The translations under genes were made by a program, and so were the position numbers. From assembly GCA_021847855.1 (NCBI GenBank), contig JAJZOT010000019.1, forward strand, positions 1 through 11,592: a stretch of DNA of 11,592 nucleotides, in the 5' to 3' direction. Origin of the DNA: Thermoplasmata archaeon (lineage in GTDB: Archaea > Thermoplasmatota > Thermoplasmata > Thermoplasmatales > Thermoplasmataceae). The notes below the pieces were generated by a model. The model was not told the DNA's origin. It did not search any database and was given only the letters and a program-made list of their open reading frames with translations. This document shows positions 1-11,592 of this stretch, in pieces. The stretch's first letter is position 1. Each line of letters starts with the position of its first letter.

Positions 1-12
1 TATCTTTTTCAT

Positions 13-31
13 TAGATATCAAATAGATATC
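13..31. promoter_or_regulatory. Tandem TAGATATC sites, possible operator or TATA region
   Basis: The octamer TAGATATC occurs at 13-20 and again at 24-31, exactly 11 bases apart, about one helical turn. The core GATATC of each copy is a perfect palindrome. A third partial copy, TAGATAT, sits at 208-214 in the putative promoter of the first surface gene. The first copy begins 27 bases before the ATG at 40, so it could be a TATA box for the small ORF there. In DNA this AT-rich such short palindromes can arise by chance. Confidence 0.2.
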
Positions 32-39
32 TATGAACT

Positions 40-138
40 ATGAATAAATATTTTGATCAATTAGGAGAAAAGCCAGGAATAAATTATCATATTATTGAGA
101 TAATTATCTTCGGAGATACTGCCTTTACAGCAAAATGA
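40..138 (+). CDS. Possible small ORF, 32 residues, unknown
   Basis: An ATG at 40 opens 32 codons ending in TGA at 136-138, beginning MNKYFDQLGEKPG and ending FGDTAFTAK. An in-frame TGA at 34-36 fixes the upstream limit. A TATA-like TAGATAT starts 27 bases upstream, which would give a leaderless message, and a short hairpin followed by a T8 tract lies 18-47 bases after the stop. I recognise no family, membrane segment or signal. It is more AT-rich than the genes to the right, and a 12-base palindrome lies inside it, which could mean that the region is regulatory DNA instead. It could also be chance or a gene remnant. Confidence is low. Confidence 0.17.
   Translation: MNKYFDQLGEKPGINYHIIEIIIFGDTAFTAK
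82..109. promoter_or_regulatory. AT-rich palindromes, possible regulator-binding site
   Basis: AGATAATTATCT at 98-109 is a perfect 12-base palindrome. AATTATC occurs at 82-88 and again at 102-108, 20 bases apart, about two helical turns, and its inverse GATAATT is at 99-105. This is the geometry expected of a dimeric DNA-binding protein, and the site lies about 100 bases upstream of the first surface gene promoter. No known operator consensus was recognised. Confidence 0.22.
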
Positions 139-155
139 AGTTTTGACTCTTTATT

Positions 156-185
156 CTGGTGCATTCCAGTTTTGTGCTTTTTTTT
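156..185 (+). terminator. Short hairpin plus T8 tract, putative terminator
   Basis: CTGG at 156-159 can pair with CCAG at 166-169 across a six-base loop. TTTT follows at 170-173 and an unbroken run of eight T at 178-185. Archaeal RNA polymerase terminates on T-rich non-template tracts, so a plus-strand transcript arriving from the left could end here. The four-base stem is weak; the T8 run is the stronger part of the evidence. Confidence 0.3.
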
Positions 186-200
186 CGCGACAGGCAATTA

Positions 201-217
201 CCGAAAATAGATATATC
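201..217 (+). promoter_or_regulatory. Putative archaeal promoter (BRE/TATA) for the first surface gene
   Basis: A purine-rich stretch, CCGAAAA at 201-207, is followed by TAGATATATC at 208-217, which fits a BRE plus TATA box. Its centre is about 27 bases before the TTG at 240, the same spacing as in the promoter of the next gene (centre near 1245, start at 1272). This predicts transcription starting at or next to the initiation codon, giving a leaderless message. Confidence 0.45.
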
Positions 218-239
218 GGGCAATTGCATGCTCTCTTAG

Positions 240-1232
240 TTGGCAAAACTTTCAGTCGGGAAAAAGGACAGTGCGGTCGCCGTCATAATCGGAGCGTTGC
301 TTACCTTTGTCATAGTTGCCTCTCTGATGACTGCTTACGTACTGTGGTATGTGCCCTCCAATGGTCAGCAACAGGACCTTCAGTATATCAGTGAGACAGA
401 GAATTCATTCCTCCAGTTGCAGGACCAGATCAGCAACACAACACCTTATCCCAATGATTTTGTCGGGCAAAGTTTCACGCTTGGAGTTCCTGGAACTCCC
501 CCATTCTCATCGAGCACGGATTCCTTTATCGGATACACGAACGGATCTGGCTTTAGAATCACTATGACTTACAACATGAGCGTCACTGTGTCCTATGATA
601 AGGTTGTGAGAACTATACCAATCAATTACACATTCAACTGTACAGGGGAATTTTATCTTGATACAGAAACACAGTTTGTCACCCCTACCAATTTTTACTA
701 CCAGTCTGACACAATAATCCTTCAGCAGCCCGCTTCCAATTATTCTGAAATAGTCGGGTCCCTTCCTATTTCTTTTGGCGGCCATGCCAAGAAACTTTAC
801 TTGAACGCATCCCAGTATTCGGTTGAAGGTACCAATTCCTCTACGGGAGGATATGGGGTTGCCCTCATCACAATGCAGTACTCCGACATAAACCAGAGCA
901 GCTTTTTCCTCGGTGAAAACGTTACTGTCTCCAACCTGACGGGCGGTTATACCTCGGCGATCGTGGATAACATTACACTTAACTCGTTCAATTACACCAT
1001 TATATCGCCGCAGGCATTTGCATGGAATTATGCACTTGCTTCGCTTTACAACTTGACTGCAAGCCAGCATCCATGGGGAAACAAACCGTTCACGTGGCAA
1101 CCTTTAACCAGTGGCTCCATCAACATCACGGCCAACCCGAAAGGCAACACGCTGAACATCGGCACAACCCATACCCTCTATCCATTTTCTGTCAATTTCG
1201 GGTACTTTGTCCTACGGTTGTTGCAGCTCTAA
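240..1232 (+). CDS. Pilin-like anchored surface protein, minimal form without propeller
   Basis: This 330-residue protein is anchored in the membrane and faces outward. Residues 11-37 form a hydrophobic helix (AVAVIIGALLTF...) resembling the archaeal type IV pilin N-terminus, ending in LWYVP. Residues 40-118 align by eye with the membrane-proximal module of the next two proteins (shared pattern QxFxLGxxGT). Residues 136-330 align with their C-terminal module: GEFYLDTETQFV, FYYQSD, AWNYAL, and a final LLQL. It lacks the propellers that interrupt both paralogues, so it may be the ancestral scaffold or a reduced form. Fifteen N-x-S/T sequons suggest heavy glycosylation. The start is TTG because TAG immediately precedes it and no in-frame ATG occurs before the hydrophobic helix. 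The usual VSE of the anchor is VAV here. Function is unknown; a structural pilus-like or ligand-binding role is inference. Confidence 0.8.
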   Translation: MAKLSVGKKDSAVAVIIGALLTFVIVASLMTAYVLWYVPSNGQQQDLQYISETENSFLQLQDQISNTTPYPNDFVGQSFTLGVPGTPPFSSSTDSFIGYTNGSGFRITMTYNMSVTVSYDKVVRTIPINYTFNCTGEFYLDTETQFVTPTNFYYQSDTIILQQPASNYSEIVGSLPISFGGHAKKLYLNASQYSVEGTNSSTGGYGVALITMQYSDINQSSFFLGENVTVSNLTGGYTSAIVDNITLNSFNYTIISPQAFAWNYALASLYNLTASQHPWGNKPFTWQPLTSGSINITANPKGNTLNIGTTHTLYPFSVNFGYFVLRLLQL

Positions 1233-1234
1233 AT

Positions 1235-1250
1235 TTGAAAAGTTTATTTC
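1235..1250 (+). promoter_or_regulatory. Putative promoter for the propeller surface-protein operon
   Basis: In the 39-base gap after the first surface gene, TTGAAAAGTTTATTTC contains a BRE-like AAAA run and a TATA-like GTTTATTT centred near 1245. This is 27 bases before the ATG at 1272, so the message is probably leaderless. No Shine-Dalgarno sequence precedes the ATG, which fits. The second gene can therefore be transcribed independently of the first. Confidence 0.6.
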
Positions 1251-1271
1251 TCACCTTTCACTTAACACTTT

Positions 1272-4200
1272 ATGCAAAGGCATGAGGCTGGTGTATCTGA
1301 GATCATCGGAACGATGCTGGTCTTTGCAATGGTTATCACCTCTTTTTCTGCACTGGAACTGTGGTACGTTCCGAATACCGAGGGAGCCTATGAACAGCAG
1401 TTCCAGCAGGAATCCCAGGCTTCACTTGTTTCGCTGATTTCTCAGATCGAGTCTCCCGCCCTCTCCTATGGGGATGTGATATCCCAGAATATTCCACTGG
1501 GCATTCAGGGAACTTTGCTATCGCCGTCGCAACCATCATCCATCGCATATCAGGACGGGGGGTTCAGTGCCTCTCTTTCATATGGTTTAGGAATAAACTA
1601 TAAGTTACTGGAGAACACCGTTCCCACTGCCATCACAAACGAAGTGGTGGGCACCGTTCCTGATATGAGTGGACTTGGACCTTCCCACTCCCTGACTGAA
1701 AATGGTATTACCTATATAACTGACTACAGCTCGAACAGCATGGAAGAAATTAACGATACAACCCATACCGTAATAGGCAACTTCAGGGTTGGCCTTAATC
1801 CGAGCGGATTAGCCTATGATCCGCAGAACGGAAATCTTTACATTTCAAATTTTTTTGCTTACACCAATTCCTCGGGTCTTCTTTATTCAACAATTACGGT
1901 TTTTAGCACAAAAAATAACACAATAGTAAATACCATCAATACGAACGGAATGGATACTGCCTTGCTATATCCTAGCGGGATAGCCTTTGTTCCTCAGCCT
2001 TCTACTTTAGGGGGTTATCTCTATGTCAGTGTAATGAACCTTACGTCAGGAGGGGTTAGCGCGGGCTACACACCTGACATCGCAGTAATTGACTTAAGCG
2101 ATACTTCCACCATTACCCTGATTAGGACAGATCTTTTCCCTGCTGGACTCGAAGTGAGCAATATAATCGCCGTCTCAGGCATCTCAGGCATTTTCCTGAA
2201 AATATTCTCGACCGATTACTGGCAGAACAACCTGACTGTGCTAACAATTTCGAGTGTAACGGACAGCTTTACAGACTTAACACCCACTTATGTTTCATCT
2301 GTCCCTAATCCGTATGGAATTGCTTATGATCCAGTTTCCCAAAATATTTTAGTGACGAATTCCAGCTACCTGCTTACTTCTTCAGGGATTCCTCATCCAA
2401 ATGAGGCTATCAACAGTGCAGGGCCTCAAAGCGGAAATATGACAGTGGTGAATGCGGCATTGAATACGGTTTCTACGGTCTATCTGAATATTTCAGAGCC
2501 GCTTGCCATAGCAGTGAATGCAGACTCTCTAACAGGAATTTCTACTGTTTACGTAACAGGCTATAACGTTTCGTTTAATGGAACAGGGGAATTCTATTAT
2601 TCACCCATTGTTGCTTTAGAGTATAATTCCGGAACGTACCAAATAGATAAGGCTCTGAGCTTCAATTATCCCAACGGTACTCTTCCTTATCTTGAAGGCC
2701 CTGATGCTCTTAATATTAGCGCGGGACAATTGATTATATCTAACAATTTCACTTCAAATACGGTGTACCTTCCTATTTCTGGTATTTCCGGTTCTTCACG
2801 CCCATCATATGTGTGGAATAACATGTTCAATGATCCGGTGGCAATTACTTATATTAACGGGACACAGTATATTGCTGTAGTAAATTCCGGTTCGGACAAT
2901 GTTATCGTGATTGATACTCTCAATAATAATACAGTGGTAGGAAATTATGGCGTCGGGCAGGAGCCTACAAGCGTTGCGTACAATCCTAGTAATGGATACC
3001 TGTATGTCACCAACAATCTTTCAGAGAACGTTACCATAATTAACCCTTCGCTGAACAACCCTAATGCAGGCCACGTTGTTGCCAATATATCGCTGGTCCC
3101 AACAGGAGTTATTCCCCAGTTATACCCCGATCCATCCTATGCAGTCTATGATCCACACAATCAGTCAGTCTACGTGCTTGACAACGGCAGCGGCAACGTC
3201 ACCCAGATTCTGCAGATCGGGACAAATACCTTCAGTGAGAATACATTTTCAATAAATCCTCCGAATGCTTACTATTCCAAGGAGTTCTCTGAAGTAACAG
3301 GACCTAATTTTAAAAAGGACCGCACCTTATACGGCACTGGATCGGAGGAATTCCTTTTGCCCGCTGCAGCGAATATAACTTATCTTGAATTGCGCCTGAA
3401 TAGTTCAAGTGGCAGCGGCACAGTCACTGTGGGCATTGGAACCGGAAATTTTACTCAGGCTTCTTGGAATAGTATTGCAAGTGGCAGTGCTTCATTTACG
3501 TCTGTAAAGGATTTGAAGAAGAAAGGAGGTGCCCTTGTGCTTATTCCGCTAACTCCCTCTTTCTTCAAGCTAACCGCCGGTAAATATTATATCAATGTCT
3601 TCTGCTCAAGCGGATTGAATTGGCTTTATACACAACATACCAACGGTAATGGTAAAAACCAGAAGAATGATCTCCTTGATTTTCATTATAATGCAAAGGG
3701 AATTGTTGTTAGTGATAACAACACTCCCTTCGGCTATATAATTGGTTATAACCTTGCTCCTGCTGGTTCCACTGGCCGCCCCTTTCCAACCTCCGCGGCA
3801 ATGAACCCACTTGAGTACCAGAACTTAATGTATGTTTCCTTGTATGGGAATTCAAACGTCAGTGTAGTAAATCTCTCAATGGTACAAACTGGACCGCTGG
3901 TCAAAATCTATCGTGCTGGGCTTATGCCAAGAGATGTGATATATGATCCACTTGACAACAACATATATGTAGGCAACTCCGGTTCTGGGAATGTAACTGT
4001 AATAGACGTTCTCAATTACAACAAGGGAACTTTCAACGTTGAGTCTGCGAGCGTAGCAGCATATCCTATGGGCCTTATAATGGATAACGGCAATGGTTAT
4101 GTGTATATTGGAAACAACAACTCCGACAATATTACTCTTGAGAACACGTTCACATCCCAGACCATAAATTCCATTGCAACAGGAAATGACCCTTCTGCAC

Positions 4201-4910
4201 TGGCCTATGATAGCGAAAACGGGCTCATTTATGTTCTTGACACACTTTCCAATAAAATGACTATTATCAACGGCGGCAGCATCTATTTCAACCAGAAACC
4301 GGGAACTATAAATGTATCCACTCTAACGGGAAGTGGGCAACTTACTACCTACGGGTACACGGCATTTGTTAATCCGGTAGCATTCTACATGCAGGATGGG
4401 ATGGTGCTTTCAAACTATTCCAACTCTCAGTACGTTACAAGCTCTGCCAATGTGCCTATCTCAATTGTCAATAATTCCGGAAAATTGTTTTTCTCTTCTT
4501 TCCTACTAAATCTAGGCGGGCAGACGTCTTCTGCTTCAGGAATTGAAACCAACCAACTTACGCTCAGCGTTTCCCAATTCGAGAGTAATCACAGATATCA
4601 GGGTGAGAAGTTTACCCATTATGATCTGTACGGAAATCCATACCCTGCAATGGTGACAAACCTTACGCTGATACATTTCTCGTACGTAATCAATTCCAAC
4701 TATGCCAGCGAAATTGACAGAGTGTTATTCTCAGAATTCAATAAAAACATGAATGGCAATCTTTATTCCTGGGCCTTTTCCAGTTTTCCACTGAACGTTA
4801 CGCTCAATCCTGCTGGGACGAAACTGTCCATAACCATGCCAGCCCAGGATTACATGTCACTCTATTCAGTAAATATTGTGTATGAGAGTCTGCAGGTATT
4901 AAACGTCTGA
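1272..4910 (+). CDS. Pilin-anchored surface protein with two YVTN beta-propellers
   Basis: This 1212-residue protein has a pilin-like anchor at residues 7-30 (GVSEIIGTMLVF...), then LWYVP and a membrane-proximal module at about 40-115. Fourteen propeller blades with the YVTN pattern (PxGxAYDPxNGxLYV...NVTVID) can be counted between about 127 and 1005. Blades 1-7 (to about 508) and 8-14 suggest two seven-bladed propellers. Residues 661-825 break this pattern between blades 10 and 11. This lysine-richer segment (DLKKKGG, LTAGKYYINVFCSS) looks like a jelly-roll beta-sandwich. The C-terminal module (about 1021-1212: GQLTTYGYTAFV, FYMQDG, final VLNV) matches the paralogues on both sides. The ATG at 1272 is supported by the promoter spacing. 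The gene is followed after 8 bases by its paralogue, with probable co-transcription. YVTN propellers are typical of archaeal surface proteins that bind partners or ligands; the ligand is unknown. Confidence 0.85.
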   Translation: MQRHEAGVSEIIGTMLVFAMVITSFSALELWYVPNTEGAYEQQFQQESQASLVSLISQIESPALSYGDVISQNIPLGIQGTLLSPSQPSSIAYQDGGFSASLSYGLGINYKLLENTVPTAITNEVVGTVPDMSGLGPSHSLTENGITYITDYSSNSMEEINDTTHTVIGNFRVGLNPSGLAYDPQNGNLYISNFFAYTNSSGLLYSTITVFSTKNNTIVNTINTNGMDTALLYPSGIAFVPQPSTLGGYLYVSVMNLTSGGVSAGYTPDIAVIDLSDTSTITLIRTDLFPAGLEVSNIIAVSGISGIFLKIFSTDYWQNNLTVLTISSVTDSFTDLTPTYVSSVPNPYGIAYDPVSQNILVTNSSYLLTSSGIPHPNEAINSAGPQSGNMTVVNAALNTVSTVYLNISEPLAIAVNADSLTGISTVYVTGYNVSFNGTGEFYYSPIVALEYNSGTYQIDKALSFNYPNGTLPYLEGPDALNISAGQLIISNNFTSNTVYLPISGISGSSRPSYVWNNMFNDPVAITYINGTQYIAVVNSGSDNVIVIDTLNNNTVVGNYGVGQEPTSVAYNPSNGYLYVTNNLSENVTIINPSLNNPNAGHVVANISLVPTGVIPQLYPDPSYAVYDPHNQSVYVLDNGSGNVTQILQIGTNTFSENTFSINPPNAYYSKEFSEVTGPNFKKDRTLYGTGSEEFLLPAAANITYLELRLNSSSGSGTVTVGIGTGNFTQASWNSIASGSASFTSVKDLKKKGGALVLIPLTPSFFKLTAGKYYINVFCSSGLNWLYTQHTNGNGKNQKNDLLDFHYNAKGIVVSDNNTPFGYIIGYNLAPAGSTGRPFPTSAAMNPLEYQNLMYVSLYGNSNVSVVNLSMVQTGPLVKIYRAGLMPRDVIYDPLDNNIYVGNSGSGNVTVIDVLNYNKGTFNVESASVAAYPMGLIMDNGNGYVYIGNNNSDNITLENTFTSQTINSIATGNDPSALAYDSENGLIYVLDTLSNKMTIINGGSIYFNQKPGTINVSTLTGSGQLTTYGYTAFVNPVAFYMQDGMVLSNYSNSQYVTSSANVPISIVNNSGKLFFSSFLLNLGGQTSSASGIETNQLTLSVSQFESNHRYQGEKFTHYDLYGNPYPAMVTNLTLIHFSYVINSNYASEIDRVLFSEFNKNMNGNLYSWAFSSFPLNVTLNPAGTKLSITMPAQDYMSLYSVNIVYESLQVLNV

Positions 4911-4913
4911 GGA
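4909..4913 (+). promoter_or_regulatory. Shine-Dalgarno GAGGA overlapping the upstream stop codon
   Basis: GAGGA at 4909-4913 shares its first two bases with the TGA stop of the preceding gene and ends five bases before the ATG at 4919. GAGG complements the archaeal 16S 3' tail. The upstream leaderless gene has no such site, so this supports internal translation initiation, perhaps coupled, within a two-gene operon. Confidence 0.5.
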
Positions 4914-4918
4914 CAAAT

Positions 4919-7021
4919 ATGAAGAAACCTAAGTCAACGAGAACAAGAGATCACGGGGTCTCGGAAATTATCGGCACCCTATTAGTATTCTCGATAGTGG
5001 TTACTATCACGAGTTCCTTCATTCTGTGGTACGTGCCTTATGCCAGCGGATTGAATGAAAACCAATTCGAGGTGAATACAAAGCAGGCACTTTCTGCATT
5101 CTCAGATCAACTGACATCAACCGACATCCAGAATAATTCCATTGTACACCAGAATATCCCAATGGGAATTCAGGGTGCCTTCTTTAATAACCCAACTTCT
5201 TCGACGTTGTCTTATTCGAAAGACTTCAGCCTTTCCCTTCACTACAATGTAACAATCGAGGCAACGTTCAGCAACGGCACCCCCAGCGGGGTGGTTTCAA
5301 ATAAACTGGTTGCCAATGTGCCAGTGGGTCAGAACCCTAATGGCGTTGTGGTGGACACAGTAAATAACCTGATTTTTGTTCTGAACTCCAACTATACCTC
5401 AGATTATCATGGCACGATTACTCCTGGACACATCAGTGTACTGAATGGTGCAACAGACACTGTGGGTGCCGTAATCCCGCTGAAGGGGTATCCCTCCGGT
5501 CTGGCTTTTGACCCTTATAACAATTTAATTTTTGTTGCGGAAGGAAATCTTTCTGCCGGCTCAGGCTACAATTTTGGCACTCTAGCCCCAACTTTCCAGA
5601 ACGGTTTTATTCAGGTCATTGATGGAAATTCGCTGAAAGTTGTACAAACAGTATATTTCTCCTCTGCGCCGGACGATGTCACATTTGTACCTTACTCGAA
5701 TTCAGTTATGATAACCACATATTTCAGCGTATATGGGGGCGCAGTCGTTACTCTGAATGCCACAACTTTTGCCCAGACCGGCTATATCGTGGTAGCTCAC
5801 CCTTCGACTTCAGGCAATGGCGTAATACCGTCCAGCATATCATACGACCCGGCAAATGGGTATGTGTATGTTGCTTTGGGAGGGGGAGCAGAAGGAATTG
5901 CCATCATTAACCCCATAATAGAACAGGTGATTGGTTACATTGGCGCTAATACCCCCTGGAGTCTGGCCTACGACACTTCTACGGGCTCTATTTTTGTTAC
6001 AGAATCTTATATTTCCAGCTACAATGAACCATATAGCAATTCACCAGGTAGAACTGTATTTTCGTTGGATGGCGCAAACAATCAGCCGCTGGCATCGTAC
6101 AGTAGTCAATTCAATACTCCAGTTTCCCTTATATATGATCGCGCCAACCAGATAGTCTACGTTGCTGATTTCGGTAAAAGTTCAGTGTATCTGTTCAATG
6201 GCGTGACGGGGGATTATGTTGGTTACGTTGCGAATTATCCAGGCAATGCTGGGCCCGGCAATGGTCCAAATGCGATGGATTGGGACCCAATCACAGGCCA
6301 GATATTTGTTCCAAACTGGAACAGTGGGACAGTTTCGGTTATTTCCGGGAGTACTAGTATAACAAATCAATTTGCATCTGCAGATAACAACTTCAAACCG
6401 GTTGATACCCTTAACAGCACAGGGGAGATTGAGTCATACGGGACTACCCAATTTGTCTCACAGAATTATTATTACCTGCAGGATGGCATACCTCTAGAGC
6501 AGGGAACTGGAAATTCGTCAGGGCATCTATTGAGTAACCTGCCTCTTGATATCAAAGGTGCAAAAGGACTGTTCACTTTTAGTTCTACCATTATAAACAT
6601 GTCTGGCTCTGAAACCTCTGTATCCCAGACAGGGAGCTTCCTGCTCTCTGGAAGCGTAACAAGTCTTGACAATCAGGTCTGGACAAGAGGACAGGTGCTC
6701 AATTTCCTCAGCGGCGGAAAGCTTTACTCTGCCACTGTTACTAGCATACTACTCAACAACATGACTGTGGTGATCAAAACTCCATCGGTGGCTGCCTGGA
6801 ATTACTCGCTCTATCAATATTATAACACTGCCAGCACTTCGTTCAATTCCAACCCAATCGGCACTCACTGGCAATTACAGGGTCTTCCAATCAGGGTAAT
6901 TGTTGGAACTGACGGCATATACATATCTACTTTTCCGCTTTCTCTTTCGGGTGCAGGGTTTACCGGTTTTAACCTGCAGGCATTTCAGTTCGAATACCTC
7001 ACCGTGCTGCTTAACCTCTGA
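4919..7021 (+). CDS. Pilin-anchored surface protein with one seven-bladed YVTN beta-propeller
   Basis: This 700-residue paralogue of the preceding two proteins has a basic leader (MKKPKSTRTRDHG), a pilin-like helix at 14-37 (VSEIIGTLLVFS...), LWYVP at 36-40, and a membrane-proximal module to about 115 (QNIPMGIQG nearly matches QNIPLGIQG in the upstream protein). Seven propeller blades can be counted at about 129-484 (for example PSGLAFDPYNNLIFV and PNAMDWDPITGQIFV), enough for one closed ring. The C-terminal module at 501-700 carries GEIESYGTTQFV, YYLQDG and AWNYSL and ends LLNL. The anchor should be processed by a prepilin-peptidase-like enzyme or remain as a signal anchor; H precedes G at the expected cleavage site, where canonical substrates have a charged residue. 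Translation probably uses the GAGGA site overlapping the upstream stop. A shared surface complex with the upstream protein is inference. Confidence 0.85.
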   Translation: MKKPKSTRTRDHGVSEIIGTLLVFSIVVTITSSFILWYVPYASGLNENQFEVNTKQALSAFSDQLTSTDIQNNSIVHQNIPMGIQGAFFNNPTSSTLSYSKDFSLSLHYNVTIEATFSNGTPSGVVSNKLVANVPVGQNPNGVVVDTVNNLIFVLNSNYTSDYHGTITPGHISVLNGATDTVGAVIPLKGYPSGLAFDPYNNLIFVAEGNLSAGSGYNFGTLAPTFQNGFIQVIDGNSLKVVQTVYFSSAPDDVTFVPYSNSVMITTYFSVYGGAVVTLNATTFAQTGYIVVAHPSTSGNGVIPSSISYDPANGYVYVALGGGAEGIAIINPIIEQVIGYIGANTPWSLAYDTSTGSIFVTESYISSYNEPYSNSPGRTVFSLDGANNQPLASYSSQFNTPVSLIYDRANQIVYVADFGKSSVYLFNGVTGDYVGYVANYPGNAGPGNGPNAMDWDPITGQIFVPNWNSGTVSVISGSTSITNQFASADNNFKPVDTLNSTGEIESYGTTQFVSQNYYYLQDGIPLEQGTGNSSGHLLSNLPLDIKGAKGLFTFSSTIINMSGSETSVSQTGSFLLSGSVTSLDNQVWTRGQVLNFLSGGKLYSATVTSILLNNMTVVIKTPSVAAWNYSLYQYYNTASTSFNSNPIGTHWQLQGLPIRVIVGTDGIYISTFPLSLSGAGFTGFNLQAFQFEYLTVLLNL

Positions 7022-7179
7022 CCTTTCACAACGATAAGGATACCTGTTTCCTTAGGTGCAGAAAGTCAATGATTCGAGTACGACGGCAACCCGAAAGTTA
7101 TTAGATTCCGTGATTGCTCTGGCTCACAGTGGAGACGTATTCCAGTTTAGCCGGAAGGCAGGATTCAAGATTTGTGGAA
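7022..7179. other. Intergenic region between the surface operon and the PH/SHOCT gene
   Basis: These 158 bases separate the stop at 7021 from the chosen start at 7180. TAAGGA at 7035-7040 and TCCTTA at 7049-7054 form a six-base inverted repeat with an eight-base loop, but no T tract follows, so it is at most a weak terminator. A purine-rich CCGAAA at 7091-7096 followed by GTTATTAG resembles a weak BRE/TATA pair that would start transcription near 7125. Nothing else was recognised. Confidence 0.3.
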
Positions 7180-7683
7180 ATGCCTGAATCTTATATGATG
7201 CGGCTCAGGCCTTATCTACAGACCGGAGAGGTTATTGAGGCTAGCCTCAGGTCCTGGGGCTTCACGCATTTTGAGGGATCTAATATAAATGTAAGGGGAT
7301 CCGGCAGGGGAAGGCAGTATGGCCATGCATGGCTGGTGATCACCAACATGAGGTTGCTTATGGTCTCAAAGGGCTTTATCTCTTTTGAGGTCAGAACATT
7401 TCAGTTCAAACAGCTTTCATCAATAGAGGTACAGGAAGGCGTGATGGATGATGTCCTTATCCTCTCTGGCATAGGCGTAAAGGAGAGGTGGGTGTTCAGG
7501 AGGAAAGTCAGGGACCTGACGAAGGCGCTGTCAATTGTTATCCAGAACAGGATCACGCATGCAACTGATCGTTTGTCTGCGCCAGCCGAAACAGATCCCC
7601 TGAAAGCGTTAAAGCTCCGGCTGGCCAAAGGGGAAATAAACGAGGAAGAATTCGAAAACCTGAAGCGTTTACTTCAGGCGTGA
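7180..7683 (+). CDS. PH-like domain protein with C-terminal SHOCT motif
   Basis: This cytosolic protein of 167 residues has no signal or membrane helix. Residues about 12-125 fit a bacterial/archaeal PH-like (bPH or GRAM-type) fold: LQTGEVIEAS, then WLVITNMRLLMVSKG, beta strands ending in IEVQEG, and a closing helix LTKALSIVIQN. Residues 139-166 (DPLKALKLRLAKGEINEEEF) match the SHOCT short C-terminal helical motif (DPL..L..L...G.I.eEEFe..K..LL). Proteins with this pairing are usually small, poorly characterised and membrane- or oligomer-associated; the role here is unknown. I chose the ATG at 7180 over the TTG at 7114 because the extra 22 residues look unlike the family and the TTG lies too close to the only TATA-like box. 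GTG at 7174 and ATG at 7195 are alternatives. Its stop directly abuts the stop of the convergent surface gene. Confidence 0.75.
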   Translation: MPESYMMRLRPYLQTGEVIEASLRSWGFTHFEGSNINVRGSGRGRQYGHAWLVITNMRLLMVSKGFISFEVRTFQFKQLSSIEVQEGVMDDVLILSGIGVKERWVFRRKVRDLTKALSIVIQNRITHATDRLSAPAETDPLKALKLRLAKGEINEEEFENLKRLLQA

Positions 7684-7703
7684 TCACATTCTCTTTCTTC
7701 TCT
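7655..7703. terminator. Possible bidirectional terminator at the convergent gene ends
   Basis: CCTGAAG at 7659-7665 and CTTCAGG at 7672-7678 form a perfect seven-base stem with a six-base loop, lying inside the last codons of the PH/SHOCT gene. Read on the minus strand, the stem is followed at once by TTTT (complement of 7658-7655). Read on the plus strand, a pyrimidine-only tract TTCTCTTTCTTCTCT follows at 7689-7703, which is the antisense of the Arg/Lys tail of the minus-strand gene. With no intergenic space, both transcripts must end inside the opposing gene. Archaeal termination depends mainly on U tracts, so the role of the stem is uncertain. Confidence 0.4.
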
Positions 7704-10700
7704 GCGAAGCGACTACCGCAATGCCCACGGCAATTCCAACGACAGCTACGGCAACAATTACGATGATTGCATACCCGGGCAGGTGGAAACCGCTACTCTG
7801 GGTGGGCGGCTGGTATGACGGCGAGGTAGAGGTATAGTAAATGGGTACGGTGACGTTCTTTCCTGTCACATTAAAGGGGCTCTGAGGAGGACCGCTGGTT
7901 TCCGTATAACCGCTGATCTGGGATACTGTGTAAGTGTATGTGCCGTTGAAGAGATGCGGAATGGTAATTGTGGTAGAATTGTTGGACCACTGCGAATACT
8001 GCTTGCCGTTAAATGTGACTGACCAGAGTGTGAGGGTAGCCAGGCCGGTTTCCCTGAATACAACGCTGAATTCATATGCAATGAAGGTTTCATTCACGGT
8101 TACAGCCGCACCGCTTACGTCGAAGCTGCCGCTGTAATTAGTCGGAGCGTAATCCCTGTTGCTGGACGCTATCTTATAACTGTATGAACCGTTAGGCAGG
8201 GAGTATTCTATTGAAGTTGCCGTGGTGGATTTGGACAGTTTCACTGTGGAGTTCGATACGGTCACATTCCAACCTACCCCAACCATACCGGTTTCCTGAA
8301 ACATCACTGTGTAATTCTGTTCGTGGAATTTTATCGGCAAATTTACAGGAAAGCCGGACACGGTCAAGTTCCCGTCTCTGACATTCGGATAATAGTTCAC
8401 ATAGACGTTGGGAATATAGTAACTATATGTCCCGTTGGGCATACTAACTGATATCTGGGAACTCTGGGAATAATACGTTTTTTGATCCACTATTGCCGAC
8501 CATGACGCATTTGCCGGCAGACCTGATTCAGCAATGACAATCGGGTAGACGAAGGCGCTATAGTTGACTGCCACCATATCCGAAGAATTGAGGGAAATCT
8601 GAATCAAAGATTGTAGAGGATAATATGCTAGCCCGGAGAAAGAGTCAAAAGAAGGCTCAAACGAGAGAGTATATGAACCGTTCAGCAGGTTCAGCACCGT
8701 GTAGTTAGCTACAATTGTTGATGGCGAGGATCCAGAGATGGAGTAATCCCATGCTATTCCGACGGGTAGTCCAGCCTCCCTGATGGTAAGCTGATCCATT
8801 ACGCTGTGAAAGCTCAGGTATATAACTGAGCCGGCCTGAGAGCCGTTTACCATTATGTGCCCCCCAGACAGGTTGGAAACATAATAAGTGAGTTCATTTG
8901 GAACTACGAACGAATAGGAACCGTTTTCAAGCTCGATGGACACCACTCCGGTCCCGAATGAACTGTAAGACACGCCAGAAATTACCACCTGCCAGTTCGT
9001 GTTTACAGGAAGACCTGATTCAACAAAGCTGACCGAATATGACATGTTGTAGAATTGAATGTAAACGGTTTCGGCAGAGCCATTGATGCCCAAAATGCCA
9101 GCAGATACGTTTGCCCTGTATCCCGGCTGCCCCAAAATTATGTACTGGTAGGTGCCGTTCAGGAGGTTTGCAGTAACAATGCCGGTTGAATTGGAGTTGT
9201 ACTGTGCCCCAGACACGTTCACAGCCCATGGAATCCCAGCAGGAAGTCCATGCTCAACAAACGTTACAGGGTATTCAGCGGAAATAAATCTGATGTTTCT
9301 ATGGGTGCCTGGACCGCTAACGACAAAGAATTCAGACCGGTCAGTAGGATAATAAACCGTCCCGTTGGCCTTAACGGGCTGGGCGAAATAGTAATAGGAA
9401 CCGTTTGGGAGATATGCCGTTATTTCCCCGAGCGTATTGGAAGGATATGAGATCGTTCCGTGGTAGAACGAGTTCAGCCCCACGCTCCATGATACCCCGG
9501 AGGGCAGTCCGCTTTCAGTGAAATTGACCCTGAAGGTCAGGGGTGTGAAGGTGACGTTCACAGAAGTGTAAGAGGCAATCAGATCAACGACCCCGGATCT
9601 TACAACGGGGACGAAACTGGATGTTGAAGAAACCCAGTAAACATAGGTCCCAGAGGAAAGGTCAGTAAATGTCAGGAGGCCTCCCGAACCTGAACTCAGA
9701 GTCTGATTCCTGTTGCTTGCGTTGAGGGTCACAGAATATCCAACACCATAAGGCAGGTTAAGGCCGAAAAACTGAATCTCATTGTTGTTCTGTATGCCAA
9801 GGATACCACTCGGTGTGGCGCTGCCTGTGAAAGACAGATTTATTAAATAGACTCCGCCGACTGATCTGCTGGTGTCAGTACCGCTGTTGTTCACAGCCAG
9901 CGGAGAAAAGTCAGGATTTGCAAGGACGCTATATGAAAAAGAAGTCGATGCCGGAACAGTGAAGATAAGTGTATTGTTTGCCGTAATTTGCTTGATTCCC
10001 CCTATAGTTGCCCCCCAGACAAAGTCATTTCCCGGTGGAAGCGATTTGGCAATGAACTTCACGTAGGAATAATTCTGTACGAAGAGAACGGGCTCAGAAT
10101 AAACGTTAGAGGCGACGGTTATGCTCTTCGCCGGATACATATAAAGATATCCGCCAGCAGAAGGAATGCTGAAGCTATAGGTGCCGTTGGCAACGTAGAA
10201 CAGCATTGAGGAAGTGTTGGCTGTCTGCACCATGCCCGAGAGATTTACCGACCACATCGAAACATTACTTGCGGAGGTGCGTGGCAACCCGGTTTCATTA
10301 AAGTAGAGCGCGTTGTAACCCCTGGTGAAAATGACAGTTATGTTATGATACGAATTATTGGAATACACGGTACCTGATGCAGGCGTAGGGAAGAAAGCTA
10401 AAACGCCGTTCCTGTTTGACTGGCTGCTCAGGTGGACATCATAGCTGTATGTTCCGTTTGGGAGGGAAAACACGATGCTCTGACCTGTGCTGTACGAATT
10501 GGTGACCCCAGTAATGGAAACCCCCCACTGCGTTCCCGAGGGGAGACCGGTCTCAAAGAACGTAATTTTTTCCAGATTACTTGTGAATTTTACTGGAATT
10601 GCTAGATTGTTTCCTGAAACATTGAATTTGCCTGAACTGATTGCAGGATAGTATCCGGCTGTCCTTGAAATTGAATAGGAATAGCTGCCATTCTTCAGAT

Positions 10701-11202
10701 TGAAAACTATGCTGTTGCCGTTTGTCCTTTCGGTCAAATTGTCAACAGTAATCTGCCAGTTTGCTCCCGTGAGCAAGCCACTCTGGGTAAACGTGACTTT
10801 ATAATACGTACTTGAAAAAGCGATTTGGAGTGCAACGTTGGATGAACTCACTGTAACGGACCCATGTCTCGGATTGGTGGAATAACCGCTTATGTTTTCA
10901 ACAGTGTAGTTATATGTACCATCTGATGCAGAGAAACTGATCACATTCGTATCGCTTCTTTCCGTGGAATTGTTGAAAGTTACTGCCCAGACTGCATTAC
11001 CTGACCCAACAGAAGGGAGACCGGTCTCTTCAAATGAAACGGAATAAGCAGGCAAGACACCTGCAGATTGTGGCATGTCCTGCTGCCGAGGAGCACCGGT
11101 GCCGTAAAACAGCCCGGTCGGGGTGATGAACAGTGCAACAGCAAGGAAGCAGGCAATGACAGCAATATAACCGCTTTTACTGGATAAAACGCGTTGAAAC
11201 AT
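7684..11202 (-). CDS. Giant stalk-like surface protein with 13 GLP/NGTY repeats
   Basis: This 1172-residue protein is exported and anchored at its C-terminus. Residues 1-10 are basic and polar, and 11-33 form a hydrophobic signal segment (GYIAVIACFLAVALFITP). Thirteen repeats of 77-94 residues start near 53, 134, 211, 297, 380, 474, 557, 644, 721, 804, 886, 963 and 1044. The pattern is VxFxExGLPxGxxWxV, then a LxNGTYxY strand, then sGxxxVxGxxxxVxF, as expected of an Ig-like or PEGA-like beta-sandwich. A Pro/Ser/Thr-rich linker (about 1125-1140) leads to a membrane helix at 1143-1166 and a cytosolic QRRKRM tail. The same repeat family occurs beside thermopsin-type peptidases and in other secreted Thermoplasmatales proteins, but no peptidase domain is visible here. 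The ATG at 11202 is supported by a TATA box about 37 bases upstream. A spacer, adhesin or envelope-layer role is inferred. Confidence 0.85.
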   Translation of the reverse strand: MFQRVLSSKSGYIAVIACFLAVALFITPTGLFYGTGAPRQQDMPQSAGVLPAYSVSFEETGLPSVGSGNAVWAVTFNNSTERSDTNVISFSASDGTYNYTVENISGYSTNPRHGSVTVSSSNVALQIAFSSTYYKVTFTQSGLLTGANWQITVDNLTERTNGNSIVFNLKNGSYSYSISRTAGYYPAISSGKFNVSGNNLAIPVKFTSNLEKITFFETGLPSGTQWGVSITGVTNSYSTGQSIVFSLPNGTYSYDVHLSSQSNRNGVLAFFPTPASGTVYSNNSYHNITVIFTRGYNALYFNETGLPRTSASNVSMWSVNLSGMVQTANTSSMLFYVANGTYSFSIPSAGGYLYMYPAKSITVASNVYSEPVLFVQNYSYVKFIAKSLPPGNDFVWGATIGGIKQITANNTLIFTVPASTSFSYSVLANPDFSPLAVNNSGTDTSRSVGGVYLINLSFTGSATPSGILGIQNNNEIQFFGLNLPYGVGYSVTLNASNRNQTLSSGSGGLLTFTDLSSGTYVYWVSSTSSFVPVVRSGVVDLIASYTSVNVTFTPLTFRVNFTESGLPSGVSWSVGLNSFYHGTISYPSNTLGEITAYLPNGSYYYFAQPVKANGTVYYPTDRSEFFVVSGPGTHRNIRFISAEYPVTFVEHGLPAGIPWAVNVSGAQYNSNSTGIVTANLLNGTYQYIILGQPGYRANVSAGILGINGSAETVYIQFYNMSYSVSFVESGLPVNTNWQVVISGVSYSSFGTGVVSIELENGSYSFVVPNELTYYVSNLSGGHIMVNGSQAGSVIYLSFHSVMDQLTIREAGLPVGIAWDYSISGSSPSTIVANYTVLNLLNGSYTLSFEPSFDSFSGLAYYPLQSLIQISLNSSDMVAVNYSAFVYPIVIAESGLPANASWSAIVDQKTYYSQSSQISVSMPNGTYSYYIPNVYVNYYPNVRDGNLTVSGFPVNLPIKFHEQNYTVMFQETGMVGVGWNVTVSNSTVKLSKSTTATSIEYSLPNGSYSYKIASSNRDYAPTNYSGSFDVSGAAVTVNETFIAYEFSVVFRETGLATLTLWSVTFNGKQYSQWSNNSTTITIPHLFNGTYTYTVSQISGYTETSGPPQSPFNVTGKNVTVPIYYTSTSPSYQPPTQSSGFHLPGYAIIVIVAVAVVGIAVGIAVVASQRRKRM
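7834..11046 (-). repeat. Thirteen tandem protein-level repeats of about 82 residues
   Basis: This is the repeat array of the stalk-like surface protein, residues 53-1123. Copies are clear at protein level (FxExGLP, W, NG[ST]Y, closing VxF) but have diverged at DNA level, so it is an old array and not a recent expansion. NG[ST]Y, itself an N-glycosylation sequon, is intact in ten copies (Asn171, 249, 339, 600, 682, 760, 841, 923, 1004, 1086). It is lost in copies 1 (DGTY), 5 (STSF) and 6 (SGTY). Copies 5 and 6 also lack the ExGLP signature. Confidence 0.85.
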
Positions 11203-11234
11203 TCTTCGTACCGTTCGAGTAATTGGAAGGAACG

Positions 11235-11250
11235 TACTTAAATGTTCTTT
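11235..11250 (-). promoter_or_regulatory. Putative promoter of the stalk-like surface protein gene
   Basis: On the minus strand, AAAGAACATTTAAGTA contains a TATA-like ATTTAAGTA at 11243-11235 preceded by an A-rich BRE-like segment. Its centre is about 37 bases before the ATG at 11202, predicting a start near 11212 and a leader of about ten bases. No Shine-Dalgarno sequence is evident in that leader. Confidence 0.5.
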
Positions 11251-11351
11251 TTGCTCCTGAGACTGCTATTTCCCTGTATTCGCATTCCTCTAAAACTATG
11301 TTGTATACAGGCTGGTCACTTATTGAATCTTGTGGCTATCCGAAACATGAA

Positions 11352-11592
11352 TTACTTGATTTTATAACTGACGCCACGCCACCTTATTTCATGTGATCTG
11401 GCTCCTGCTATTACATTGTAAAGATAGACGAAGGGCAGAAACAGGCTCATAGGTACTAGCCAGATAGCGTTTTTTGGGGCTCTAATGGCTGAATTTATAA
11501 GGTTAAGCACATAGGGAACCAACCCAAGTATGTACAGATAACCGTAAAAGAGGGAAAGGTATGTGATCATTGCCAGATAGACAATGACGCCT
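11352..11592 (-). CDS. C-terminal end of a membrane protein, possibly a family 2 glycosyltransferase (partial)
   Basis: The frame is open from the right edge (GVIVYLAMITYLSLFYGY...) to a TAA at 11352-11354, so 79 codons are visible and the 5' part lies outside the window. The Met codon at 11570 is probably internal, since the frame continues upstream without a stop. The visible part has two hydrophobic segments (about 1-31 and 44-61 of the visible residues) separated by a short polar stretch, and a basic tail HEIRWRGVSYKIK. A WRG-x-x-Y motif after C-terminal membrane helices is characteristic of membrane-bound family 2 glycosyltransferases of the ceramide-glucosyltransferase type. The catalytic domain is not in view, so this is a tentative reading. 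The gene is on the same strand as the stalk-like protein and 149 bases upstream of it. Confidence 0.5.
   Translation of the reverse strand, partial: GVIVYLAMITYLSLFYGYLYILGLVPYVLNLINSAIRAPKNAIWLVPMSLFLPFVYLYNVIAGARSHEIRWRGVSYKIK

Follow-up and report, generated by a model that had tools for sequence, protein, structure and literature searches.

The window analysed here is the whole of an 11,592-nucleotide stretch of a Thermoplasmata archaeon (family Thermoplasmataceae; assembly GCA_021847855.1, contig JAJZOT010000019.1, positions 1 to 11,592). It carries three tandem genes, here called p1, p2 and p3, for proteins with a pilin-like N-terminus, and two further genes downstream of them (Table 1). 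An initial annotation, made from the letters alone, had read the three products as paralogues on one pilin-anchored scaffold with 0, 2 and 1 inserted beta-propellers. Statements at genome level rest on the genomes of relatives; loci and genomes of relatives are designated L and G, respectively.

Table 1. Features of the window and, in the last row, the small pilins of two related genomes (positions in their own loci)
Feature	Position	Strand	Basis or remark
p1, bare scaffold, predicted pilin, 330 aa, TTG start	240..1232	+	Open reading frame; orthologues in the same order; one-stretch match to the pilus-operon pilin profile
p1 N-module: class-III-like leader (K-K-D-S-A, then V; cut between A and V predicted from the motif), long helix, first beta strands	240..629	+	
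p1 joint: turn, residues 119-122, near which the paralogues hold inserts	594..605	+	Model and profiles
p1 C-module, residues 128-330	621..1229	+	Module profiles
p2, pilin-type scaffold with two propellers, 1212 aa	1272..4910	+	Open reading frame, Pfam/NCBIfam, BLASTP, profiles
p2 N-module, residues 2-124	1275..1643	+	Profile including p2; independent class profile E 2e-5 for this stretch
p2 propeller one, about residues 137-515, boundaries approximate	1680..2816	+	Six blade-profile matches and one blade by eye
p2 propeller two, about residues 519-1002, interrupted by module X	2826..4277	+	Seven blade matches
p2 module X, residues 663-853, not of propeller type; splits propeller two after its third blade	3258..3830	+	
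p2 C-module, residues 1015-1211	4314..4904	+	Profile including p2; independent class profile E 0.005 (weak)
p3, pilin-type scaffold with one seven-bladed propeller, 700 aa	4919..7021	+	Open reading frame, Pfam/NCBIfam, BLASTP, profiles
p3 N-module, residues 4-129	4928..5305	+	Profile including p3; independent class profile E 5e-9
p3 propeller, residues 131-489, seven blades	5309..6385	+	Propeller and blade profiles
p3 C-module, residues 494-700	6398..7018	+	Profile including p3; independent class profile E 2e-5
189-aa protein whose bPH_3 and SHOCT domains both exceed their cut-offs; its gene separates p3 from the ETGLP gene	7114..7683	+	Also in L001 and L005
ETGLP-repeat protein, 1172 aa, hydrophobic segments 5-35 and 1136-1168	7684..11202	-	
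Small Pilin_N pilins of two genomes with the trio	L128 2708-3265 and L129 1641-2171		Upstream of the machinery, at the place of the scaffold gene in many class genomes

All three proteins open with a charged leader followed by A or G, the motif V-[SA]-x-I-I-G and a hydrophobic helix with LWYVP at its end (residue 35 in p1, 30 in p2 and 36 in p3), as first described. The leader is rated as a class III signal peptide by motif only, because the cut-off of the Pfam family Pilin_N (PF07790, 25.2 bits) was not reached: no match was listed for p1-p3, and the best of nine scaffold relatives scored 21.9 bits. The pattern QxxxLGxxG[TA] proposed for the N-terminal module (N-module) holds strictly in p1 (QSFTLGVPGT) and p2 (QNIPLGIQGT), but p3 (QNIPMGIQGA) has M for L. 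In the C-terminal module (C-module) the pattern running from G[EQ] to T-x-FV is present (GEFYLDTETQFV in p1, GQLTTYGYTAFV in p2 and GEIESYGTTQFV in p3), as are the Tyr-rich strands FYYQSD, FYMQDG and YYLQDG, respectively, that follow it; six residues rather than the proposed five lie between G[EQ] and T.

BLASTP with composition adjustment aligned the N-modules with E values of 3e-13 (p1-p2), 2e-13 (p1-p3) and 1e-23 (p2-p3), and the C-modules with E values of 2e-12, 9e-12 and 6e-19 for the same pairs. Three of the six matches overrun the module: that of the p2-p3 N-modules into the first blades, that of the p1-p2 C-modules over nearly all of p1, and that of the p2-p3 C-modules into the last blades. 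A one-piece profile of the p1 family, built without p2 or p3 (A1), matched p1 over its full length in 5/5 genomes and, in each of these, also the N- and C-modules of the p2 and p3 orthologues (E 1e-14 to 1e-25). Judged by these matches, the N- and C-modules are homologous across p1, p2 and p3, and the proposal of three paralogues on one scaffold is upheld.

By profile, 890 aa separate the two modules in p2, as had been estimated, and 364 aa separate them in p3, where about 385 had been given. A blade profile built from the p3 family found seven blades in p3; in p2, where several of its matches were weak, it gave six in propeller one, to which one blade was added by eye, and seven more in propeller two. 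The proposed propeller counts hold, but the 890 residues of p2 also contain a non-propeller stretch of about 190 aa (residues ~663-853), here called module X, within propeller two. Module X is present in 5 of 11 p2-type proteins (the window, L001, L002, L003 and L005) and was not found in the other six (L004, L090-L094). It also matches proteins of 919-928 aa (E 2e-12 to 2e-14) in four stretches that hold scaffold genes with an insert of about 640 aa (L100, L102, L103 and L107). These proteins contain two copies of module X, and the two examined (L102, L103) carry a pro-kumamolisin activation domain, which suggests that module X is an extracellular accessory module. A search for it within the ~640-aa inserts themselves found nothing there.

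Its relatives mark the window as archaeal: the p1-family profile found five loci, all in metagenome-assembled genomes of Thermoplasmata or Thermoplasmatales; the protein at one of them (L005) has 91% identity to p1. Homologues numbered 11 for p1 and 69 for p3, many of the latter probably matched through the propeller only, going by coverage. Within the order of G005 the p1 profile matches 63 of 117 genomes and the p3 profile 70, partly through propellers alone. Of 400 Thermoplasmata genomes, 291 have a match to the bare-form profile (A3), some of these matches spanning little beyond the helix, and the profile also matches proteins of 288-290 aa in Thermoplasma acidophilum and T. volcanium.

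The window and 45 loci, 46 sources in all, were searched with profiles of the N-module, C-module and propeller. These sources hold bare proteins of 280-371 aa as well as single-propeller and double-propeller proteins. Three first-gene orthologues of 646, 997 and 1008 aa (L092-L094) carry a DUF2341-like insert (E 6e-4 to 7e-3, below the cut-off), and proteins of 937-978 aa carry the ~640-aa insert, which looks immunoglobulin-like and jelly-roll-like by eye; no Pfam cargo family was matched by it in the five full-length proteins examined. Both modules were found in 63 rows, representing 60 distinct proteins (25 bare and 35 insert-bearing). In the 35 insert-bearing proteins, inserts of 341-926 aa, whether propellers, the DUF2341-like stretch or the ~640-aa stretch, sit at one joint: the separate N-module profile ends at position 113-128 of 129 in 35/35, and the C-module profile starts at position 1-9 of 198 in 33/35 and at 24 and 26 in the other two. 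These module profiles include p1-p3 and were cut by hand at the joint, and their ends there are partly so by construction; the class profile described below, in one piece like A1, is the fairer test. The initial idea of p1 as a bare scaffold with propellers as cargo is borne out, other lineages carrying different cargo at the same joint. The claim of one insertion point stands as a rule for the 35 proteins, with an exception in the wider family: a relative of the scaffold in G015 (L165 9727-11415, minus strand), encoded 1.0 kb away from pilus machinery, carries a Laminin_G_3 lectin domain (E 7e-15, over the cut-off) inserted elsewhere than at the p2/p3 joint. A very long open frame that seemed to start with the scaffold helix in one genome was an artefact of masked bases.

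The nature of the propellers bears on whether they could be enzymes, of lactonase or dehydrogenase-like type, held outside the cell with the scaffold as a mere tether. Pfam Lactonase passes in p2 (29.2 bits against a cut-off of 21.7), and NHL passes in both p2 and p3. The generic YVTN repeat is the only NCBIfam model passed by p1-p3, however, no enzyme-specific NCBIfam model reached its cut-off in that scan, and the joint that would be the tether also accepts unlike cargoes; we consider this explanation very improbable.

An AlphaFold2 model of p1 from 16 sequences (predicted local distance difference test score, pLDDT, 78.4; predicted template modelling score, pTM, 0.69) shows a helix at residues 7-65 followed by an all-beta domain. 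Counted from the predicted cut between residues 12 and 13, the helix has 53 residues; the N-terminal helix of pilins has about 50 (PMC9934059), so that the model has both a helix of pilin length and a beta-rich head. The joint lies in the model at a turn between strands 106-119 and 122-135. A fold search with this model matched no solved structure, and its top rows, from herpesvirus glycoprotein B, had a probability of at most 0.08 and were discarded as noise. The model of p2 (residues 1-1200, seven sequences) has a pLDDT of 50.9 and is too poor for judging the scaffold. In a Foldseek search with it, 1394 of 1766 rows had E <= 0.001 and the 50 listed were mostly multi-propeller or WD-repeat proteins; these rows fit the predicted tandem propellers and are given no weight, as the model is poor.

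The bare family is linked by gene order to pilus machinery in the class Thermoplasmata. Twenty class loci were taken, not at random, as the best-scoring listed A3 matches outside the order set; G143, whose gene runs off its contig, was skipped. At 18 of the 20 loci the scaffold gene lies on the same strand as the ATPase and platform genes and at most 1 kb from them. Two ATPase and two platform genes are complete in 13 loci; in five the contig ends within the set, and at L146 and L148 none of these genes was seen. The reference operon (L128) passes PF00437 twice and PF00482 twice, and both ATPases of L129 and of L143 pass PF00437. Among 13 order-level loci, 12 have the scaffold within 1 kb of the machinery and all have it within 5 kb, a count biased by the fact that these loci were picked after the linkage had been seen. 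T2SSF was found in 17 of 18 genomes and in 310 of 400 genomes of the same class. The two-ATPase, split-platform machinery is also present in G005 and G001, two genomes with the trio. Linkage to an assembly ATPase and platform was thus found for the class-level relatives; the trio itself stands at another locus. In L153-L156 an Fa-Fb-E2 arrangement without E1 adjoins the scaffold gene.

A class profile was then built from the 20 class-locus proteins alone. Its match to p1 is a single stretch (residues 8-288, E 3e-20), and those to p3 and p2 are two stretches each (p3: E 6e-14, profile positions 12-128 and 152-267; p2: E 1e-8, the second stretch only 0.005). All 25 bare relatives were found in one stretch. 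Among the 35 insert-bearing proteins, 14, p2 and p3 included, were found in two stretches broken at the joint, 17 in the N-part only, and four were unmatched. The test is independent in its letters and not in its selection, because the 20 proteins were found through A3, which contains p1.

Taken with the kinship of p1, this linkage indicates that the inherited role of the family is probably pilus-related. The explanation we favour, with more confidence than any other, is that p1-p3 are an archaeal type IV pilin family of the two-ATPase, split-platform machinery, p2 and p3 being modular pilins with internal propellers. It is based on the homology of the scaffolds, the insertion point, the alternative cargoes, the synteny of the locus and the operon linkage of the family to the machinery. 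Both p2 and p3 join a pilin-type scaffold to a domain of general type (propeller, NHL and YVTN models), the combination by which modular pilins are recognised. Such an architecture, for which the initial annotation had no name, is called a modular pilin in bacteria, where 264 architectures are recorded (PMC8179133).

Some observations weigh against this explanation. The main gap is the prepilin peptidase: neither family (PF01478, PF06847) was found in G005 or G001, and among the 18 genomes PF01478 occurs in three and PF06847 in six, all six below the curated cut-off, so that eight have either. No pilus gene was recognised beside the trio loci. This last point favours the main rival, in which p1-p3 would not be filament subunits: the pilin-type helix would serve as a membrane anchor, and the proteins would be part of an unordered exterior protein layer of about 20 nm, together with the ETGLP-repeat protein. 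Two imaged Thermoplasmatales species without an S-layer have an exterior layer of unidentified proteins (PMC12448462). The gene for the ETGLP-repeat protein, which has hydrophobic ends and matched no Pfam family over cut-off, stands beside 11 of the 12 trio-type loci and beside none of the 23 other stretches, and N-glycosylation sequons are many in all four proteins (15 in p1, 35 in p2, 11 in p3 and 52 in the ETGLP-repeat protein). The rival has to account, however, for a bare family that is tied to pilus machinery in the class loci and to which p1 is related over most of its length, and we regard it as unlikely.

No bacterial pilin family was among the matches listed in the Pfam and NCBIfam scans of p1-p3. 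PF23960 (DUF7289, cut-off 27 bits) was tried as the family of the scaffold and rejected as below cut-off: p3 scored 13.1 bits, no match was listed for p1 or p2, and 0/18 genomes gave a score over the cut-off. Seven of 16 class-level scaffolds match it at E <= 0.01, and one (L111) passes with 28.5 bits; the family is kept as possible distant kin.

The initial annotation had further suggested that p1 might be the major subunit of a filament, with p2 and p3 as decorated minor subunits of the same filament. The shared scaffold and the tandem genes agree with this, but in both relatives examined a separate small pilin over the Pilin_N cut-off (186 aa in G005, 177 aa in G001) is encoded 0.3 and 2.1 kb, respectively, upstream of the first pilus ATPase gene. 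A census of archaeal pili also predicts the large euryarchaeal operon pilin, arCOG02911, to be a minor subunit (PMC4858521), and the solved pilus of Cuniculiplasma divulgatum is built of a 135-residue pilin (PMC12448462). A major role for p1 is therefore improbable.

Residue +3 after the predicted cut differs between the groups. It is E in 9 of 11 p2 proteins (two unparsed), in 9 of 13 p3 proteins (three unparsed, one V), in 16 of 17 bare forms of other loci (one S) and in 8/8 of the ~640-insert forms; it is V or A in all seven parsed first-gene proteins of trio-type loci (4 of 11 unparsed). The 20 class proteins have S, A or V there. A bacterial tip complex capped by a pilin that lacks the conserved Glu5 has been described (PMC10191384), to which the archaeal pattern may or may not correspond.

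The order bare, double-propeller, single-propeller is kept in 5/5 genomes. The initial annotation had proposed checking whether propeller forms always lie beside the bare form; they do not, the 17 bare loci fetched for comparison holding one scaffold gene each. L092-L094 are trio-type loci whose first gene has an insert of its own. The scaffold tree (58 sequences, 300 columns, midpoint-rooted; of the 63 rows it omits five, namely L084 and L087, for poor coverage, and the three of L109, a repeat of L005) groups the first-gene trio-type proteins, including the DUF2341 forms (ultrafast bootstrap, UFBoot, 89-100), the p2 proteins (98), p2 with p3 (99), and the ~640-insert forms (100). On a parsimony reading of this tree, cargo would have been gained three separate times. 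Gene order was compared across 35 stretches (12 trio-type, 17 bare and 6 of the ~640-insert type). At least one of purB, a glycosyltransferase gene, ftsZ and an acyl-CoA synthetase gene lies beside the scaffold at 10 of the 12 trio-type and 16 of the 17 bare loci, and at no locus of the ~640-insert type; the trio-type exceptions are the window, which is short, and L002, and the neighbour families were named by Pfam from one member each. From the tree groups and the common flanking genes, the trio probably arose at the site of a bare gene, and the propeller forms look like a local elaboration at that locus. TATA-like stretches were seen by eye about 27 bases 5' of the p1 and p2 starts (window 205-240 and 1238-1272), and leaderless starts with separate promoters are suggested for these two genes. 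A GAGG ahead of the p3 ATG (window 4900-4919), also seen by eye, suggests translation of p3 from the p2 message.

The closest bacterial parallels are PilB and PilC of Streptococcus sanguinis, large pilins in which a domain of general type is added to the pilin module (PMC8179133, PMC9934059). In a modelled tip complex, the plain pilin PilA stands with the modular PilB (vWA) and PilC (lectin) (PMC9934059), a set that p1 with p2 and p3 resembles in make-up; the Laminin_G_3 scaffold of G015 likewise parallels the lectin pilin PilC. The module of the S. sanguinis pilins is C-terminal, whereas in p2 and p3 it is internal and the scaffold resumes after it. The bacterial pilins with grafted domains considered here mostly carry the domain at an end, with ComZ of Thermus and GspK of type II secretion as two cases of insertion into the pilin sheet, of a beta-solenoid and an alpha-domain, respectively (PMC8179133). 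The joint described here differs from these in taking up cargoes of several unlike kinds, on a scaffold of an archaeal family. PilX2 of Saccharibacteria is a pilin with a seven-bladed propeller and a proposed adhesin, and PilX1 of the same bacterium has a jelly-roll-like domain (PMC12206443); the PilX2 propeller is C-terminal, made of RCC1 repeats and bacterial, whereas those of p2 and p3 are internal, of YVTN/NHL type and archaeal. PilC/PilY1 is a propeller-bearing tip adhesin proposed to be presented with minor pilins (PMC8179133). Unlike p2 and p3, whose propellers precede the C-module, PilY1 is not a pilin and its propeller is C-terminal; the listed Pfam matches of p1-p3 with E <= 1 include no PilY1-type propeller model. 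Sugar-binding proteins of the bindosome differ in having a solute-binding domain behind the class III signal, and none was among the Pfam and NCBIfam matches listed for p1-p3.

On the archaeal side, arCOG02911 of the euryarchaeal Clade 2 pili is an all-beta pilin of 250-550 aa, prone to duplication and predicted to be minor, and loci of that clade often have two tadC genes (PMC4858521). We think that the scaffold belongs in or next to arCOG02911; the comparison is with the description of that group only, and the passages describing it mention no inserted propellers. The CdiP pilus of C. divulgatum has two ATPases and a split platform, as do G005, G001 and the class loci; its filament is of a small pilin, CdiPB, and the description of the pilus mentions no large insert-bearing pilin (PMC12448462). 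That set was described as unusual, with the two ATPases reported as unique (PMC12448462), although in 2016 the census of archaeal pili had reported an Aciduliprofundum locus with two ATPases and a frequent doubling of tadC (PMC4858521). Going by the present loci, machinery of this type appears widespread in the class Thermoplasmata and not confined to C. divulgatum. No archaeal description of the p1-p3 architecture was found in titles and abstracts or in the passages cited, in a search that excluded most subscription papers and is no proof of absence. The system differs from those compared in joining an archaeal scaffold, internal insertion at a common joint and unlike cargoes.

In the mechanism that we propose for such a pilin family, p1 would be the bare subunit, and p2 and p3 would carry two and one seven-bladed propellers, respectively, inserted at the hairpin turn. 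An insertion at this turn would leave the N- and C-modules of the scaffold able to fold together around it. A prepilin peptidase would cut after the A or G that precedes V-[SA]-x-[IV]-I-G, and the hydrophobic helix would anchor the protein in the membrane before packing into a filament via the pilus machinery. The propellers would then face outward as modules that bind ligands, most likely on low-abundance subunits at or near the pilus tip. The scaffold looks like a reusable mount that presents binding modules on the cell surface.

A wider proposal is offered as speculation, and with low confidence. The large pilin encoded in the operon of the two-ATPase, split-platform pilus may serve throughout Thermoplasmata as a mounting block with a permissive hairpin, duplicated in place in some lineages and given unlike cargo at that joint at least three times. 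The trio would form a tip complex, the plain p1 together with p2 and p3 and their propellers, as a counterpart of PilA/PilB/PilC of S. sanguinis that evolved independently by internal insertion, and insert-bearing homologues would form the unexplained distal hooks of Cuniculiplasma pili.

The relatives of the bare form are tied by gene order to the pilus machinery of the class, and the joint of the scaffold may be a natural, apparently permissive display site. The insert-bearing scaffolds are candidates for the make-up of the pilus hooks and of the exterior protein layer in acidophiles that lack an S-layer (PMC12448462).

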